64,000 nt of DNA, taken from Pararhodobacter oceanensis (lineage in GTDB: Bacteria; Pseudomonadota; Alphaproteobacteria; Rhodobacterales; Rhodobacteraceae). A program made the translations under genes and the position numbers. Each line of letters begins with the position of its first letter. Within the stretch, counting starts at the first letter, position 1. The DNA lies in contig NZ_QDKM01000002.1 in the NCBI RefSeq assembly GCF_003076755.1, positions 434,001-498,000 on the forward strand, given 5' to 3'. Under the pieces are notes generated by a model. That model was not told where the DNA came from and made no database searches. It saw nothing but the letters and a program-made list of their open reading frames with translations. Below are positions 18,006 to 43,397 of this stretch, one piece after another.

Positions 18006-19078
18006 GTGCCCCCGACGCGGTGCCAAGCGCCAGCCACGCACCCCTCTACCGCCGCCTGTTCCTCATCGCCGTGGTCGCGCTGGCGCTTGCGCTCCGTTTC
18101 GACCTGCTGACGCTTGAGGCCCAGACCGCGGGCACATTAACCCTGATCCTCTGGACCACCGCGCTTGCCCTGATCGCGCTCGAGGCCAGCGATGCGCTCG
18201 GTATCTCCCGCCGGTGGCTGGTCATCGCCCTGCCGATGCTCTGGCTCTTCGTGTTCTTTCTGGTGCCGTTTCTGGTGCTTGGCCGCATCTCCATCGCCGA
18301 ATCGATGATCGCCCGCCCGCCCTATAGCCCGCTCTGGGAACGCGGCTCCGACGGTTCGCTCGAGATCATTGCCAGCCTTGATAACTACCGTTTCCTCCTG
18401 TCCGACGCGCTCTACCGCAACGCCTATCTCTCGTCCTTCCGTGTCGCCGCCATCTCGACGATCTTCGCGCTGCTGATCGGCTACCCGCTCGCCTATTACA
18501 TCGCCCGCGCCCCCGAGCCGCGCCGCTCGATCCTGCTGCTGTTGGTGATCCTGCCGTTCTGGACCTCCTTTCTGTTGCGGGTCTACGCATGGATCGGCTT
18601 TCTGCGCCGCGACGGGGTGATCAATAATATCCTCACCTGGGCGGGGGTGATCGACGAGCCCTTGGTGATGATGCAAACCGACCTCGCGGTCTATATCGGC
18701 ATCGTCTACACCTATCTGCCGTTCATGATCCTGCCGCTGTACGCCAATCTGGTGAAACTCGACGGCGCGCTCCTCGAGGCCGCCGGAGACCTCGGCGCCT
18801 CACCCATGGTGACCTTCCTCACCATCACCCTGCCACTCTCGCTGCCCGGGATTGTCGCGGGCTCGATGCTGGTTTTCATCCCCGCCATCGGCGAATATGT
18901 GATCCCGGCACTCCTCGGCGGGCCCGACACGTTGATGATCGGCCGCGTCCTGTGGGATGAGTTCTTTGCCTCGCGCGACTGGCCCGTGGCCTCGGCGGTG
19001 GCAATCGTGATGCTGGTGCTGGTGGTGCTGCCGATCATGTGGCTGCAATCGGTGCAAAACCGCGAGGTGCCGAAATGA
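18002..19078 (+). CDS. potH: Polyamine ABC transporter permease
   Basis: A 358-aa inner-membrane permease. After two extra N-terminal hydrophobic helices, the usual six-helix core follows. The cytoplasmic EAA loop (LEAAGDLGASPMVTFLTITLPL) docks the ATPase. The two N-terminal helices make it longer than E. coli PotH. Four-base overlaps on both sides (ATGA) tie it to potG and potI. Confidence 0.94.
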   Translation: MSAPDAVPSASHAPLYRRLFLIAVVALALALRFDLLTLEAQTAGTLTLILWTTALALIALEASDALGISRRWLVIALPMLWLFVFFLVPFLVLGRISIAESMIARPPYSPLWERGSDGSLEIIASLDNYRFLLSDALYRNAYLSSFRVAAISTIFALLIGYPLAYYIARAPEPRRSILLLLVILPFWTSFLLRVYAWIGFLRRDGVINNILTWAGVIDEPLVMMQTDLAVYIGIVYTYLPFMILPLYANLVKLDGALLEAAGDLGASPMVTFLTITLPLSLPGIVAGSMLVFIPAIGEYVIPALLGGPDTLMIGRVLWDEFFASRDWPVASAVAIVMLVLVVLPIMWLQSVQNREVPK

Positions 19079-19878
19079 ACCTGCGCGGCTATTTCCTGCC
19101 CGTCGTCGCCACGCTGGGCTTTGTGTTCCTCTATGCGCCGATCGTCTCGCTGGTGGTGTTCTCGTTTAACGAAAGCCGCCTCGTCACCGTCTGGGGCGGG
19201 TTTTCCACCCGCTGGTATGGCGAATTGCTGCGCGACGGGCAGATGCTCTCGGCGGCTTGGGTCAGCCTGAAAGTCGCCACGCTCAGCGCCACGCTGGCCA
19301 CGGTGATCGGCACGCTCGCCGCCTTCACCCTGACCCGTTTCGCAAGGTTTCGCGGCAAGCTCCTGCTCACCGGCATGGTCACCGCGCCCTTGGTGATGCC
19401 CGAGGTGATCACCGGCCTGTCGCTGCTCCTGTTGTTTGTCACCATGGAAAATATGCTCGGCTGGCCCGCAGGGCGCGGATTAACCACGGTGGTGATCGCC
19501 CATGCGACCTTCTGCGCCGCCTATGTCACGGTGATCGCCCAGTCACGGCTGCGCGATATGGACGAAAGCCTCGAGGAGGCCGCCCGCGACCTCGGCGCCG
19601 GTCCGGTCAGGGTATTCTTCGACATCACCCTGCCGGTGATCACCCCGGCGTTGATCTCCGGCTGGCTCTTGGCCTTCACGCTGTCGCTCGATGATCTGGT
19701 GGTCGCCAGCTTCGTTTCCGGGCCGGGCGCCTCGACCCTGCCAATGGTGATCTTCTCGAAAGTGCGCCTCGGGGTCAGCCCCGATGTCAACGCGCTCGCC
19801 ACGATCATCATTGTGATCGTCGCCATCGCCGTCACCATCGCCGGCCTGCTGCTGCGCCGCCAACACAAGAAATACTAA
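19075..19878 (+). CDS. potI: Polyamine ABC transporter permease
   Basis: The second permease of the importer, 267 aa, with six membrane helices and the EAA loop (LEEAARDLGAGPVRVFFDITLP). It starts at the ATG overlapping the potH stop; the open frame extends further upstream but that part lies inside potH. With potF, potG and potH it completes a PotFGHI-type system. Confidence 0.94.
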   Translation: MNLRGYFLPVVATLGFVFLYAPIVSLVVFSFNESRLVTVWGGFSTRWYGELLRDGQMLSAAWVSLKVATLSATLATVIGTLAAFTLTRFARFRGKLLLTGMVTAPLVMPEVITGLSLLLLFVTMENMLGWPAGRGLTTVVIAHATFCAAYVTVIAQSRLRDMDESLEEAARDLGAGPVRVFFDITLPVITPALISGWLLAFTLSLDDLVVASFVSGPGASTLPMVIFSKVRLGVSPDVNALATIIIVIVAIAVTIAGLLLRRQHKKY

Positions 19879-19892
19879 GCGAAACCGGCCCG

Positions 19893-19957
19893 CTCATCTG
19901 TCCAAAAATATCCTGGGGGTGAATGGCCGCAGGCCAGAGGGGGCAACGCCCCCAAGA
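19893..19957 (-). repeat. Dispersed double-hairpin repeat, copy A (divergent)
   Basis: Read on the minus strand: a GGGGGC-GTT-GCCCCC hairpin, a GGCC-TGC-GGCC hairpin, then CCCCCAGGATATTTTTGG and AGATGAG. The hairpin part matches copies B-E. The end departs from the GGCATAAAG core and resembles copy G. It follows potI and may serve as its terminator. Confidence 0.7.
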
Positions 19958-19969
19958 CTTTCGCACAAA

Positions 19970-20099
19970 GGGCCGCGCCCGACCCTGGGAGGGCGCGGGC
20001 ACCCTCGCGGCGACGCGCAGCGCTCAGAAGCATCCATGTCGGGCGCGCAATGAACGATATCGCCGAGCGCCCTCCCGTGGGAAGGGTCGGGCGCGGCCC
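19970..20099 (-). repeat. 130-bp palindromic element, copy 1
   Basis: The outer 17-bp arms are perfectly complementary (19970-19986 and 20083-20099, GGGCCGCGCCCGACCCT and its complement). Inner 10-bp arms (19987-19996, 20067-20076) extend the stem past a 6-nt bulge. It matches the two copies near 36.8 and 37.1 kb in the opposite orientation. Beyond it, a shared tail (CCCGCGCCAAAC ... CTAAACTCACC) runs to the stop codon of rlmJ. A small open frame inside it is an artefact of the repeat. Confidence 0.8.
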
Positions 20100-20151
20100 G
20101 GGTGAAAGCCCGCGCCAAACGGTGGGCCTGTTCAACAAGTGGTTGCTAAAC

Positions 20152-20934
20152 TCACCCCGCCAGCGTCTCGAACACCGCCGAAACCCGCGCCGCTTCCGTG
20201 TCCAACCCCCAAGGCGGGTTGATCACGAAAAGCCCCGACCCGACCATCCCGTGCCCTTCGCGCGCCGGCGCAAACCGCACCTCATGGCGCAAAGCCCCCG
20301 GGTGCGCCGCCTGCAACTCGCGCAGCATCCCCAGATGCCGCCCGTCGCTCAGGATCGGATACCACAGCGCAATAATCCCCACATTCCACTTGCGCGCGAT
20401 CAGCCCGATGAACCGCGCCATCTCGGCATAATCCGCCGCCACCTCATAGCTCGGATCAATCAGCAGCATCCCGCGCCGCGGCATCGGCGGGGTCAATTCC
20501 TGCACTTTGGCAAAGCCGTCCACCTGATGCACCCGCGCCGCATAGGGCATCATCGCCTCGGCCAGCGCCTCATATTCCGCCGGATGACGTTCGGCCAGAT
20601 GCACGGTATCAAACCCGCGCAACAGGCGCGTGGCAATCATCGGCGAGCCGGGATAGGCCGCCGGTCCGAACTCTGCGCGCAACTCGGCTATCACCCGCAT
20701 ATAGGGATGATCCGGCGCAAACCCCGCTTCCAGCCGGAAAATCCCCGCCTCGGCCTCGCCGGTCTTCACCGCTTCGGGCGCGCCCAGATCATACAGCCCG
20801 CGTCCGGCGTGGCTCTCGATATAGGTCAGCGGTTTCTCCTTGCCGGTCAGATAGTCCAGCATCCACGCCTGCAGCGCATGTTTATGCACATCAGCGGCGT
20901 TTCCGGCGTGATATAGATGTTGATAGGACAGCAT
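20152..20934 (-). CDS. rlmJ: 23S rRNA (adenine2030-N6)-methyltransferase RlmJ
   Basis: RlmJ methylates A2030 of 23S rRNA. The 260-aa protein begins MLSYQHLYHAGNAADVHKH, the diagnostic N-terminus. The AdoMet site is around YIESHAGRGLYDL, and the catalytic motif appears as IDPSYE (DPPYE in E. coli). The ATG at 20934 is preferred over a GTG two codons upstream because family members start with MLSY. The stop codon abuts the tail of a palindromic repeat. Confidence 0.93.
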   Translation of the reverse strand: MLSYQHLYHAGNAADVHKHALQAWMLDYLTGKEKPLTYIESHAGRGLYDLGAPEAVKTGEAEAGIFRLEAGFAPDHPYMRVIAELRAEFGPAAYPGSPMIATRLLRGFDTVHLAERHPAEYEALAEAMMPYAARVHQVDGFAKVQELTPPMPRRGMLLIDPSYEVAADYAEMARFIGLIARKWNVGIIALWYPILSDGRHLGMLRELQAAHPGALRHEVRFAPAREGHGMVGSGLFVINPPWGLDTEAARVSAVFETLAG

Positions 20935-20997
20935 CGCCACAGACTTTCCGGCCCGCCAGACGCGCGCCTCAGGGACATGAAATTCGGGAAGACCGCG

Positions 20998-22230: not shown

Positions 22231-22294
22231 AGAGGGGGCGCTGCCCCCACCGCCTGCGGCGGCTCCCCCGGGATATTTCAGGCATAAAGTGGGG
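22231..22294 (+). repeat. Dispersed double-hairpin repeat, copy B
   Basis: GGGGGC-GCT-GCCCCC hairpin, CCGCC-TGC-GGCGG hairpin, then the core GGATATTTCAGGCATAAAGT (22271-22290) followed by GGGG. It begins directly after the fabA stop and is a likely transcript end for fabA. Confidence 0.85.
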
Positions 22295-36287: not shown

Positions 36288-36758
36288 ATGTTTCGCAGCC
36301 TCAGCGCCTTAGCCCTCGTCACCCTGTTTGCCGCCTGCCAGACCGGCGCGCCGCAACCCGAGGTGCGCCGTGCAGATACTGTCGCACCGGCCCTCGCTCA
36401 TGTGCCCGCCGATGCCTGCTGGGCGACCGACCGCGTGCCCGCGTTGACCGAGACCCAATTTGTCGCGACCGGCCCCGATGGCGCCCGCGCGCCGCAAGAC
36501 GTGGTGCTACGCCCCGCCGAAGAACGTCTCTTCGCCGTGCCATGCCCCGCGCAGATGGACGCCGGTTTCACCGAGACCCTGCAGCGCGCGTTGTCTGCAC
36601 GCGGGCTCTATACCGGTGCGATCACCGGCGAGATGGATGCCCAGACCAGCGACGCGGTGCGCCGGTTTCAGGCCCCACAGGGGCTCAACAGCGCGATCCT
36701 CTCGCTGGAGGGCGCCCAGCAATTGGGCCTCGTCACCCTGCCACGCGCCGCGCTGTAA
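36288..36758 (+). CDS. Lipoprotein with peptidoglycan-binding domain
   Basis: The 156-aa protein has a lipoprotein signal with the lipobox FAAC (Cys17) and a C-terminal peptidoglycan-binding type 1 domain at about 98-150 (LQRALSARGLYTGAITGEMD, then TSDAVRRFQAPQGL). It probably anchors in the outer membrane and contacts the cell wall. The middle region has Cys residues at about 44 and 85 that might pair. A pair of palindromic elements lies downstream. Confidence 0.85.
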   Translation: MFRSLSALALVTLFAACQTGAPQPEVRRADTVAPALAHVPADACWATDRVPALTETQFVATGPDGARAPQDVVLRPAEERLFAVPCPAQMDAGFTETLQRALSARGLYTGAITGEMDAQTSDAVRRFQAPQGLNSAILSLEGAQQLGLVTLPRAAL

Positions 36759-36846
36759 GGTGGCTGCCGTCTTCCCAACGGCACTGCGCGCACCCCACTA
36801 GCCACCGTTTCCCCCACCGTTCATCCGCCACGCCCGTGGCCCCCAC

Positions 36847-36977
36847 GGGCCGCGCCCGATCCTCCCTATGGGAGGGCGCATTGGCGAAGTCACTCACCGC
36901 CCGCCCGACTTCACTGCTTTGGAGTGCATCCCTCAGTGGCAAAGTCAGTTCCGCCCACCCAGGGTCAGGCGCGTCCC
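36847..36977 (+). repeat. 130-bp palindromic element, copy 2
   Basis: It begins GGGCCGCGCCCGATCCT and ends AGGGTCAGGCGCGTCCC, nearly complementary ends as in copy 1, with a CCTCCCTATGGGAGG hairpin next to the left arm. Sequence similarity to copy 3 extends from 36826 to 36988. Together with copy 3 it forms a direct tandem duplication with a 223-bp period. Confidence 0.85.
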
Positions 36978-37069
36978 TCATCGCTTCGCGCGTATCGCTC
37001 AAAGGAAGTCCGGCGGCTGCACCAGCAGTTCGCAGCTACAAAGGCCCCCGCCACGCCCGTGGCCCCCAC

Positions 37070-37199
37070 GGGCCGCGCCCGACCCTCCCCACGGGAGGGC
37101 GCATTGGCGATGTCGTTCGTCGCTCACAGGGCATTTCCGCTTTGGAGTGCAGCGCTCAATGGCAAGGGCAGGGCGCCCACCCAGGGTCAGGCGCGTCCC
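37070..37199 (+). repeat. 130-bp palindromic element, copy 3
   Basis: It begins GGGCCGCGCCCGACCCT and ends AGGGTCAGGCGCGTCCC. It is the same length as copy 1 (130 bp) and in the opposite orientation to it. Similarity to copy 2 covers 37049-37209. The tail after it (CCCGCGCCAAAC ... CTAAACTCACC) is shared with copy 1 and runs into the kpsC stop codon. The rest of 36759-37263 holds no gene. Confidence 0.85.
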
Positions 37200-37263
37200 T
37201 TATCCTTCGAAAACCGTCTCGCCCGCGGCCCGGGCTGATACCCGCGCCAAACAGGGACTAAAC

Positions 37264-39342
37264 TCACCGCCGCCACAGCCAGGCGTGGCTCGCCAGAGCC
37301 CCCTGCGCTTTCGCCAAGACCCGCAACCGCAACGGGCGGCGCGGCATACCGCCCGAGGCCAGCCGCTCAACCGCCACTTCCACGGGACATAGCGCGCCGC
37401 TCACCGGATCGTAATACCGCGGATAGGCAATCAGCGCCGCATGCACCAGCCGGTCGAGATCAGGCCGCGGGTAGACCGCGCGCCGCCGCTCGGGCACCCA
37501 TCCGCGATCCTGCGTCAGCCCCCAACCGGCATAGAAGGGCGCGCCGAAACAGACCACCGGCAGCCCGCGCAAGAGCGCCTCGAAGCCGATCCCCGAGGTC
37601 ATCGTCCAGACCTGATCCACTAGCGCCAGCGCCTCCTGCGCGCCGGTCCGCGCCAGCACCAGATCGGCCAATTCCGCCGCGTCGGGCACCGCGCCCAGCC
37701 GCAAACCGGCCTCGATATCGGGGTGCGGTTTATACAGGATCACCGCCTTTGGCACCGCCGCCCGCACCGCCTGCAACAGCGCGCGGTTGGTGCCTATCTC
37801 ACCTGCGCCCAGCCGGATCGAGGCGTCATCCTCCACCTGTCCGGGCACCAGGATCACCGGCGCCTCGGGCCGCGCCGCGCGCAACTCCGCGACCTGTTCC
37901 GCCACCGCTTCGCCCGCCGGCAGGTTGTATTTGGTCACCCCCTGCGCCAGCAGGTGCTCGCGCAACTGCCGCGCGCGCTCTGCGCCACCGGCGGGCAGGG
38001 GGGCGGCGATCAACCGCTCCAACCGGCTTTCAACCGTTGGATCATAGTAGATGCCCAGATCATCGATGCAGAGCGACAAGGGCGGCGTCAGTTCCGCGCC
38101 CAGACCGCGCGAGCGCAGGAACCCGTCCTCGACCCGCAAGCTGTTGAAATCCTTGGGCACTGCCGAAGCCCAGCCCAACAGCTGCCGCCCGTCGCGCGCC
38201 GCCTGCCCCTGCGCGCGCGCAACCGAGGGCGCAAAGCGCAGCGGCTTCTGCCCACCGAAAAACGCCTGCAACGCCGGGCGTTTCCACAGCCGCATGCCGA
38301 GCGCGACATAGCCCCGCCGGTCCTGCCGGAACGCCTGCACCTGCGCCTCGAGATGATCAATCACATCCTCCAGCGCACAGAGCCGGTCGCGCGCCGGATC
38401 ATACCACAGCGGATAGAGCATCATCGCCCCGGCAAAAAGCTGCACCTTGGTTAATTTGCGCCGCCGCCGCAGCGAGGGCGTCTGGTCCGCGCTCAACCCC
38501 CAGCCGGCGTAAAACGGCTGCCCGAAGACGCGCGGGCGGTGCCCCGCGAGGATCGCCTCGAACCCCATCTGCGAGGACACCGTATAGACCGCGATCGCGC
38601 CCTCGAATAGCGCATAGGGCGACTGCGGCCCGTCGATAAACGCGACCCGCCCGCCCGTATCCGCTGTGCTATAATGCCCCGCGCGCTGCCCGCCTGCGGT
38701 CTCGGGATGGGCGCGGATCAGCACGCGCGCATTGGGATGTTCCTCCTGCGCGATCAACAGCATCTCGCGAAACAGCCGGTCCTCGGGCAGCGCCCCCGCC
38801 TCACCACCATGGGTCAGCGAGGCATCACCGCGCACCTGATCAATCACCAGCACATAACCGGCTTTGGGGGGCGGGAACTCGGGGTCATGAGCGTTGTATT
38901 TCGACAGATGCAACGCCCGCAGCCGGTCGATATTCACCCGCGCCCGCGCCATCAATGCGCCGTCATCAAAGGCATGCGTGGCCAGCAACTCCTCCAGCTC
39001 CGAGGGCGCGGAGGGATCGTAATGCATCGCCTTGCGGTCCAAAAGCAGCCCCAAAGGCGGCTCACCCGAGACCCGCGCCGGATGCAGCGAGCGCAAAAAC
39101 GCATCCTCGACCCGCCACAGAGGCGCCCCGCTGCGCCGCGCCAAGGCCTCGGCCCGCCATGCGCGCGGCGCGTGCCCCCAGGCCAGCACCGCGTCCTCGG
39201 GCGAGGGCCAGCCCAAACCGGGCTGGGCAATGGCCAGTTCCAGAATGCGGCGGATGCGCCGCGCCTGCGCCGAGGGGCCCAGAAAGCCGCCGCTGGCAGC
39301 AATCAGGCGATGCGGCACAGCGGGGGCATTCGGGCGGGGCAT
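37264..39342 (-). CDS. kpsC: Capsule polysaccharide glycosyltransferase KpsC
   Basis: KpsC builds, with KpsS, the beta-Kdo linker that joins capsular polysaccharide to its lipid. The 692-aa protein has two homologous glycosyltransferase-like halves, each with PFYAGWGL (GQPFYAGWGLSADQT and GAPFYAGWGLTQDRG) followed by a similar block ending in a YPLWYDP or YPRYYDP motif. In E. coli the two halves act in succession. It is the last gene of the wza-kpsC unit. The stop codon touches the tail of a palindromic repeat. Confidence 0.93.
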   Translation of the reverse strand: MPRPNAPAVPHRLIAASGGFLGPSAQARRIRRILELAIAQPGLGWPSPEDAVLAWGHAPRAWRAEALARRSGAPLWRVEDAFLRSLHPARVSGEPPLGLLLDRKAMHYDPSAPSELEELLATHAFDDGALMARARVNIDRLRALHLSKYNAHDPEFPPPKAGYVLVIDQVRGDASLTHGGEAGALPEDRLFREMLLIAQEEHPNARVLIRAHPETAGGQRAGHYSTADTGGRVAFIDGPQSPYALFEGAIAVYTVSSQMGFEAILAGHRPRVFGQPFYAGWGLSADQTPSLRRRRKLTKVQLFAGAMMLYPLWYDPARDRLCALEDVIDHLEAQVQAFRQDRRGYVALGMRLWKRPALQAFFGGQKPLRFAPSVARAQGQAARDGRQLLGWASAVPKDFNSLRVEDGFLRSRGLGAELTPPLSLCIDDLGIYYDPTVESRLERLIAAPLPAGGAERARQLREHLLAQGVTKYNLPAGEAVAEQVAELRAARPEAPVILVPGQVEDDASIRLGAGEIGTNRALLQAVRAAVPKAVILYKPHPDIEAGLRLGAVPDAAELADLVLARTGAQEALALVDQVWTMTSGIGFEALLRGLPVVCFGAPFYAGWGLTQDRGWVPERRRAVYPRPDLDRLVHAALIAYPRYYDPVSGALCPVEVAVERLASGGMPRRPLRLRVLAKAQGALASHAWLWRR

Positions 39343-42935: not shown

Positions 42936-43005
42936 AGGTTTTGGGTATCGCGAGGCTTGTGGTCAGTTGACCTGACTGCGGGCGGCGCTTATGTCGGGCG
43001 GGCGC

Positions 43006-43397
43006 GGATGGCTGGACGGCCGCGGGCCTTTCGGCTCGAGGAAAGTCCGGACTCCATGAGGCAATGGTGCCGGGTAATGCCCGGCCGGGGCAACCCGAGG
43101 GAAAGCGCCACAGAAAACAAACCGCCCGCGCCTTTTGGCTGCGGGTCAGGGTGAAACGGTGGGGTAAGAGCCCACCGCGGGACGGGCAACCGGACCGGCA
43201 TGGCAAGCCCCACCAGGAGCAATGCCGAATAGGGGCCTCGTGCAGGTATGATCGCTTTAGCGATATCACTGCGGGGAGATCTCAGCCCAGAGGCCCGGGT
43301 TGGCAGCTTGAATCCGCCGGTAACGGCAGGGTCAGAGGAATGGTCGTCGAAGGGGGCAACCCCGGAACAAAATCCGGCTTACAGGCCGTCCGCGCAA
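43006..43397 (+). ncRNA. rnpB: RNase P RNA (bacterial type A)
   Basis: The catalytic RNA of RNase P, which matures tRNA 5' ends. The 5' region has the universally conserved GAGGAAAGTCCGG (43038-43050), and the 3' region has AAATCCGGCTTACAGG. The terminal helix P1 is visible as GGACGGCC (43014-43021) pairing with GGCCGTCC (43384-43391). Internal hairpins such as GGTGCCGGGTAATGCCCGGC and the GGTGAAACGGTGGGGTAAGAGCCCACC block fit the type A fold. The exact ends are estimated from P1. No strong terminator follows. Confidence 0.95.

Follow-up and report, generated by a model that had tools for sequence, protein, structure and literature searches.

Three copies of a palindromic element of about 130 bp were predicted in the 64,000 nucleotides of Pararhodobacter oceanensis DNA analysed here (hereafter the window), and they raise the question of whether such a unit is a mobilisable repeat of the MITE or REP type, a structured RNA, or a chance product of GC-rich sequence. 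All three copies were confirmed, with lengths of 130, 131 and 130 bp for copies 1, 2 and 3, respectively, as was the tandem arrangement of copies 2 and 3, which lie on the same strand with a start-to-start distance of 223 bp. The plus strand of copies 2 and 3 was taken as the canonical orientation, and copy 1 is therefore on the minus strand. BLAST within the window aligned copy 1 with copy 3 at E = 4.7e-17, copy 1 with copy 2 at 1.5e-10 and copy 2 with copy 3 at 4.4e-30. Covariance model R2, which was trained on 46 copies outside the window (18 in this genome and 28 in others) and superseded model R1, whose automatic structure was poor, gave the three copies the scores listed below. The ends as first given were too narrow: the unit extends beyond them by about 25 nt at the 5′ end, where it includes a hairpin (P1) and a weakly conserved lead, and by about 10 nt at the 3′ end, for a full length of about 165-170 nt. 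All three copies sit between convergent genes. The features are as follows:

19075..19878, plus strand: ABC transporter permease gene (PF00528), left of copy 1, reading toward the element
19970..20099, minus strand: element copy 1, stem to stem (R2, 111.0 bits over 19970-20115)
20096..20117, minus strand: P1 hairpin of copy 1, with GGGCC common to P1 and the outer stem (from sequence and P1 covariation)
20152..20940, minus strand: RlmJ-type methyltransferase gene (PF04378), right of copy 1, reading toward the element
36288..36758, plus strand: peptidoglycan-binding domain protein gene (PF01471), left of copies 2 and 3
36832..36850, plus strand: P1 hairpin of copy 2 (from sequence and P1 covariation)
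36847..36977, plus strand: element copy 2 (R2, 110.9 bits over 36832-36977)
36978..37054, plus strand: spacer between copies 2 and 3, made up of copy 2 tail, linker and copy 3 lead (common 222-230 bp period class)
37055..37073, plus strand: P1 hairpin of copy 3 (from sequence and P1 covariation)
37070..37199, plus strand: element copy 3 (R2, 121.0 bits over 37055-37199)
37264..39342, minus strand: capsule polysaccharide biosynthesis protein gene (PF05159), right of copies 2 and 3

A separate, terminator-looking repeat (ATCTGTCCAAAAATATCC...GGGGGCAACGCCCCC) was seen at 19884-19953, with related stretches near 22242, 22426, 27425 and 42880; among the matches listed, it has many in same-genus genomes at 81-97% identity.

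The fold is conserved across genera

From 5′ to 3′, the unit consists of a weakly conserved lead, P1, a 17-bp outer stem, a 6-nt C-rich bulge that is confined to the 5′ side, a GGG/CCC helix, a mismatch (A.A in 140 of 171 copies), a 6-bp helix, a core of about 70 nt, the 3′ arm and a short tail. Copy 1 folds into the single long hairpin that had been predicted for it (-89.3 kcal/mol), and the values for copies 2 and 3 are -58.4 and -74.1 kcal/mol. The perfect 17-bp complementarity of the ends is found in copy 1 only, as copies 2 and 3 have two non-standard outer pairs; in the R2 alignment, copy 2 has one more non-standard pair in the inner stem. What had been described as a further 10-bp stem is not a continuous helix but 3 bp, a mismatch and 6 bp behind the 6-nt C-rich bulge. 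The nearest predicted gene lies 24 nt from the 5′ stem versus 0 nt from the 3′ stem, and this gene-free gap of at least 24 nt at the 5′ stem fits P1 belonging to the unit. Similarity restricted to the GC-rich ends, which the original prediction had named as an outcome that would speak against it, did not hold: the motifs GGCGATG, CGACAT and TGCTTT are conserved in the core, and in many other genera the core has GCTTT...GATAAA instead.

Covariation was then assessed in a set of 37 genomes from 37 genera, in which each genome was represented by its top-listed copy (two further copies of one genome were left out). The covariation that had been proposed as a check was present, with 92.3% of the cells paired and 15 of 31 pairs changed on both sides, in 48 such cells. 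Pairing fell to 48% when the partner was slid by one column, and the mismatch column was unpaired in 34 of the 37 genera. Within this genome, the stems are nearly invariant (RNAalifold, 1 doubly changed pair of 29), and P1 covaries, with one pair being T-A in 75 and G-C in 72 of 171 copies. Single-sided stem changes in this genome fall on the 3′ arm in 180 cases versus 62 on the 5′ arm; in the Thioclava set described below, the arms change alike (33/431 and 31/431). At the orthologous rfbB-rfbD space of Phaeobacter, the stem differs between species by compensated changes, being GACCCT/AGGCTC in P. inhibens and GACCTT/AAGGTC in P. gallaeciensis.

Two further ideas were tried and set aside. Mutual information on the 171 own copies picked up P1 and no convincing long-range pairs in the core, and a core pseudoknot was dropped. 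Coding was rejected, since any frame is open in at most 37 of 60 own and 50 of 94 other copies, counts for which no chance level was computed, and variability is alike in the three codon phases.

The genome holds at least 172 copies

A search for further copies, as the original prediction had advised, was productive. In 334 kb of selected stretches, nhmmer found 172 near-full-length and 8 partial copies, so that the genome holds at least 172 of the former. BLAST with copy 1 gave at least 78 genome matches (40 of 178 candidates scored), and R2 matched 150 of 150 scored candidates at 93.9-144.5 bits, each over 139 to 148 nt. With up to 2 mismatches allowed, a 28-base arm pattern occurred 170 times genome-wide (73 and 97 by strand). 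The stem-to-stem length is 130-132 bp in 160 of 172 copies, despite a mean pairwise identity of 75%. The 64% GC of the window could favour a chance similarity among GC-rich stretches, and two controls refute this reading, to which we give practically no weight: the same arm pattern read backwards had 0 occurrences genome-wide versus 170, and 0 of 500 shuffles of the 37-genus set reached any of the five measures of covariation.

Copies occur singly in 54 intergenic spaces, in twos in 39, in threes in 12 and in a group of four in 1. Of 66 pairs of adjacent copies, 59 share a strand and 7 lie on opposite strands. The start spacings of the same-strand neighbours are 179-181 bp in 7 of 59 and 222-230 bp in 25 of 59; a period of about 180 bp leaves about 10 nt between units, and one of about 226 bp adds about 45 nt of near-constant length and poor conservation. 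Head-to-tail arrays, for which these two periods are preferred, are seen, for example, at loci L002 and L025 and at 36847-37199 of the window. One single-hairpin form was seen in this genome (L262), and it fits a deletion between the arms.

At five loci, a module of about 170 bp, always in the same orientation, splits the element close to its bulge. The module is a repeat itself (family B), with at least 60 genome matches (from 40 scored candidates out of 79). On its opposite strand, family B has a side hairpin, a 17-bp outer stem, a 5-nt C bulge, GGG/CCC, a mismatch, 6 bp and a core with ATAAAGCGC; it thus shares the geometry of the first family, and the stem letters differ. As a palindromic repeat of about 165 bp, it is often arrayed (L011:1126-1310; L200-L219).

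Distribution in Rhodobacteraceae

Of 246 genomes of Rhodobacteraceae, each with up to 12 candidates scored, 146 have R2 matches. A class-wide sample of 192 genomes has 2 with a match, and both belong to Rhodobacteraceae. Carriers among the matches listed are Thioclava, Oceanicella, Tropicimonas, Pseudooceanicola, Ruegeria and Aliiruegeria. Matches were also found in 52 plasmid records, mostly partial or short-form, from Phaeobacter, Leisingera, Paroceanicella and Tritonibacter. Seventeen same-genus genomes have 0-12 matches each (104 candidates scored in each) versus at least 150 here, from which we infer that the repeat was amplified in the lineage of this genome. The phage records searched gave no match, and the IMG/VR contigs gave one exact arm match only; it belongs to a GATAAA-type copy on a 10.4-kb contig, around 2980-3130 of L287. 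A full-text literature search, in which few subscription journals were represented, returned no paper naming the repeat family, and none of the Rhodobacter-type names sought occurs in the main text of PMC12306157 and PMC3733652. The family is apparently undescribed so far.

Copies lie mostly behind genes

Genes were called with a simple, purpose-made codon-usage gene caller, and for the 172 copies in this genome no overlap with a predicted gene exceeds 60 bp. Of the spaces that hold a copy, 102 have called genes on both sides, namely 60 convergent, 38 codirectional and 4 divergent ones (convergent versus divergent, 60 v 4, p = 7e-14); the copy-free spaces of at least 60 bp in the same stretches comprise 8 convergent, 36 codirectional and 31 divergent ones. 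The orientation of copies in codirectional spaces is only weakly biased (39 v 26). The 37-genus set has 12 copies in convergent, 21 in codirectional and 3 in divergent spaces, and 1 copy that overlaps a predicted gene. By names given from sequence, a parE-like gene adjoins the chosen copy in three of the 37 genera (L220, L245, L246), and lepA-, carB-, cysS- and dnaE2-like genes do so in two each, the pairs of loci being L222/L233, L231/L254, L227/L256 and L223/L258.

Empty sites exist, and no Y1 transposase was found in the genome

Empty sites in relatives, which had been proposed as a check of mobility, were found on Leisingera plasmids. Of the xdhC alleles read, three are occupied (L. aquaemixtae M597 and R2C4, and L. 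caerulea S122) and four are empty (L. caerulea S216, L. methylohalidivorans, and strains NJS201 and S132). In the occupied alleles, a short form of the element lies within an in-frame segment, for a net gain of 114 bp or 38 codons; the insertion can be seen in an L. aquaemixtae plasmid at L267:651-1658. A TRAP transporter locus of Leisingera is occupied in two L. aquaemixtae records and empty in L. thetidis and L. caerulea S141. The single-hairpin form, which fits a deletion between the arms, occurs in one of the L. aquaemixtae records at the TRAP locus and in L. caerulea S216 at another locus. For copy 1 of the window, 19 loci from same-genus genomes were searched with R2, with 0 matches. The permease and RlmJ genes share a contig in at least four of these genomes (G010, G015, G016 and G017), 5.5 to 25 kb apart, and they therefore offer no clean empty site for copy 1.

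The target duplication that had been suggested as a second check did not stand out in 57 solitary copies: the best of many offsets gave 4 copies sharing 4 bases versus 0.48 by shuffling, and old copies could have lost such a duplication. The Y1/RAYT transposase family PF01797 had 0 matches in this genome, which is 99.9% complete; it matched 2 of 18 genus genomes and 5 of 14 control genomes. Four further arm places, from the 100 of 170 that were listed, proved to be full or single-hairpin copies, one region with a composite in addition; at the level of these repeat sequences, no autonomous partner came to light.

Orthologous Thioclava sites can hold different copies

Two Thioclava genomes were compared, for which the R2 match counts, with antisense echoes, are 33 and 41. 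Twenty-five places of one genome were examined; for 16 of them, the compared stretches of the other contain an ortholog, and the remaining 9 are either empty there or outside those stretches. The same copy is present in both genomes at 11 of the 16 orthologous loci; at the remaining 5, the copies differ between flanks that are approximately 93-99% identical, a split that was made after the alignments were seen. At 4 of these 5 loci, the copy is opposite in orientation, P1 included, with flanks of approximately 93-97% identity, and in 3 of the 4 the inter-flank stretch is equal in length within 5 nt; at the fifth differing locus, the other genome is about 565 bp longer. The inverted pairs are L289/L316, L299/L311, L304:3599-3742/L317:781-924 and L291:656-793/L314:655-776. 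Once turned, the partner core is 12-72% identical (the cross-copy median being 65%), and better matches exist elsewhere in the other genome, which indicates that the copy was exchanged rather than merely flipped, or that the site was hit twice. The plain reading of these inversions is an orientation-blind turnover at a preferred spot. To our knowledge, there is no described mechanism for same-site exchange into the opposite orientation.

Substitutions in the 11 same-copy pairs number 14/594 in stems, 52/809 in the core and 341/8361 in flanks, the latter including coding sequence. Stems thus change less than the core (p = 3e-4) and, by a modest margin, less than flanks (p = 0.038), and change in the core outpaces that in the flanks (p = 0.003). 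When the 16 loci are pooled, the stems show more differences (64/862) than the flanks (515/11997) because five of the loci hold different copies.

The original prediction of a mobilisable unit is borne out in part. The copy-number contrast, the empty Leisingera alleles, the composites of the two families and the Thioclava replacements are indirect evidence of mobility, and no target duplication, Y1 transposase or autonomous partner was found that would make the unit a MITE in the strict sense. The repeat could be purely selfish, a MITE or REPIN whose arms are kept for a transposition enzyme and whose copies turn over and survive behind genes as insertions elsewhere are lost. Uneven copy number between related species, the empty sites in Leisingera, the composites at five loci, the different copies at 5 of 16 Thioclava loci and the avoidance of divergent spaces are all in keeping with this. 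However, stems change less than the core in orthologous Thioclava copies that have not been replaced, one orthologous stem, in Phaeobacter, differs by compensated changes, and sites with a replaced copy still hold a copy, though the design could not show emptied sites. A Y1 transposase was not found in the genome either, nor were target duplications in 57 solitary copies. We therefore regard a purely selfish repeat as a real but lesser possibility.

RNA and DNA signals at the element

Departures in the stems of this genome comprise 114 transitions and 128 transversions (711 and 546 in the core), and there is no overall excess of G.U-type changes in them. Counted by strand, wobble-type changes number 25 on the canonical versus 89 on the opposite strand; most fall on G positions of the 3′ arm, and transitions are not enriched overall. 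Because wobble-type changes are not enriched, the stem constraint seen in Thioclava is no proof that RNA is selected. Within 36700-37300, a terminator scan gave nothing at copies 2 and 3, the lone terminator-like site being in the spacer on the minus strand at 37025-37010 (shuffles mean 0.3), and no promoter-like site was detected. The tail consensus has no long T run. With Rfam 15, the window has no match above gathering score except RNase P; this is a bacterial class A RNase P RNA (RF00010, 291 bits) at 43004-43397 on the plus strand. At E up to 5, copies 2 and 3 gave one lncRNA match of 7.7 bits versus a cut-off of 50; 10 other loci had no Rfam match, and no tRNAs were found in 13 loci or the window.

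As to the predicted structured RNA, the structure is supported by covariation across genera, and action as RNA is possible, with neither an overall excess of G.U-type changes nor a terminator-like site at the element to speak for it. If every copy were a gene transcribed as a discrete RNA, the covariation, the near-fixed length and the conserved core motifs would be accounted for. More than 170 copies, their gain, loss and replacement between species, the missing Rfam match and the missing promoter-like site in 36700-37300 argue against such a multi-copy RNA gene, which we consider very unlikely.

In E. coli, gyrase or a nucleoid protein uses BIMEs at the ends of genes as a platform. By analogy, the arrays could be a DNA-level platform of this kind, in which the arms would matter as inverted-repeat DNA. 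The preference for convergent spaces, the 59 same-strand to 7 opposite-strand neighbours with their periods of 179-181 and 222-230 bp, the absence of an overall G.U-type tolerance and the acceptance of both orientations at one site would suit it. With a core of about 70 nt separating the arms, however, cruciform extrusion is unlikely. A bulge on one side and a conserved mismatch fit a folded single strand better, and P1 acts as a hairpin of its own. On balance, a DNA-level site appears unlikely.

Comparison with known systems and proposed role

Among repeats of comparable kind, ERIC is a palindromic repeat of about 127 bp, and CIR carries GANTC methylation sites. Unlike CIR, the repeat described here is depleted of GANTC, with 7 sites in 172 copies v 21.7 expected. 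CIR, which is named in PMC10969869, is similar in comprising alphaproteobacterial intergenic palindromic repeats. A 127-bp enterobacterial unit is mentioned in PMC2759123, and ERIC/MITE-like enterobacterial repeats are described as intergenic, in some cases intragenic, and present in tens to hundreds of copies, with effects on mRNA; where ERIC lies at the end of a gene, mRNA levels are affected (PMC10969869). The repeat here differs from ERIC in geometry and in bacterial family, and 20,395 E. coli records searched with copy 3 plus P1 contained no match. Rickettsia palindromic elements often insert in-frame in protein genes (PMC10969869). The in-frame insertion in Leisingera xdhC, one observed case, resembles these, whereas in this genome copies do not overlap predicted genes beyond the limit given above. 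With RIME, the comparison was by kind of repeat.

REPINs consist of conserved, inverted palindromic arms around a less conserved spacer and have many intergenic copies, compensatory changes and singlets beside doublets (PMC3116915). The repeat here is alike in having two inverted REP-like arms that fold to one hairpin around a variable spacer. It differs in its extra 5′ hairpin, one-sided C bulge, fixed mismatch, near-fixed length and head-to-tail arrays; unlike in REPIN/RAYT systems, there is no Y1/RAYT gene in the genome, and, of 171 copies, 1 has the GTAG tag in the stretch upstream and 2 have it in the tail. The nearest named alphaproteobacterial class is that of the CGTC-tagged palindromic repeats, which occur in species of all alphaproteobacterial orders and likewise have no dedicated transposase (PMC3733652). 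The REPs treated there are 20-40 bp long (PMC3733652). In our repeat, the CGTC tag is not fixed, occurring at the expected columns in 37 of 171 copies and in 4 of 37 genera; CGTC anywhere before the stem was found in 42 of 171 versus a mean of 29 and a maximum of 47 in 200 shuffles. The separation from the families of PMC3733652 is by main text, and short pieces of the element may overlap families there.

We give about an even chance to the reading that this is a dispersed hairpin repeat of REPIN/ERIC-like type, moved by means other than a Y1/RAYT transposase of this genome and kept behind genes probably for its fold. The copies would spread as a non-autonomous unit recognised via its folded arms by an enzyme other than a Y1/RAYT of this genome, and copies that land between gene ends may be retained since a long hairpin is useful there in either orientation. 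The likeliest site of action would be the 3′ ends of the flanking transcripts, where the fold could block 3′ exonucleases, offer a double-strand cut site or lessen read-through from one convergent gene into the other. The conjectural step is the one that leads from the fold to transcript ends. REP hairpins in E. coli have been reported to impede 3′-5′ exonucleases (PMC5082802). A bolder version, which we find rather unlikely, is that one geometry (17 bp, C bulge, 3 bp, mismatch, 6 bp and side hairpin) is common to at least two families of this genome, that a non-Y1 mover recognising single strands spreads copies and swaps them either way at fixed sites, and that the repeats have been recruited family-wide to act behind genes as separators that work in either orientation.

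This would be a repeat family present in the majority of the genera sampled from Rhodobacteraceae, marking gene ends and having no Rfam entry. If its mover is not a RAYT, there would be a so far unknown route for spreading hairpin repeats, and a hairpin action at transcript ends would mean that a single small element touches more than 100 intergenic spaces per cell. Natural empty, occupied and inverted sites are available in named culturable relatives, and both questions are therefore directly testable.
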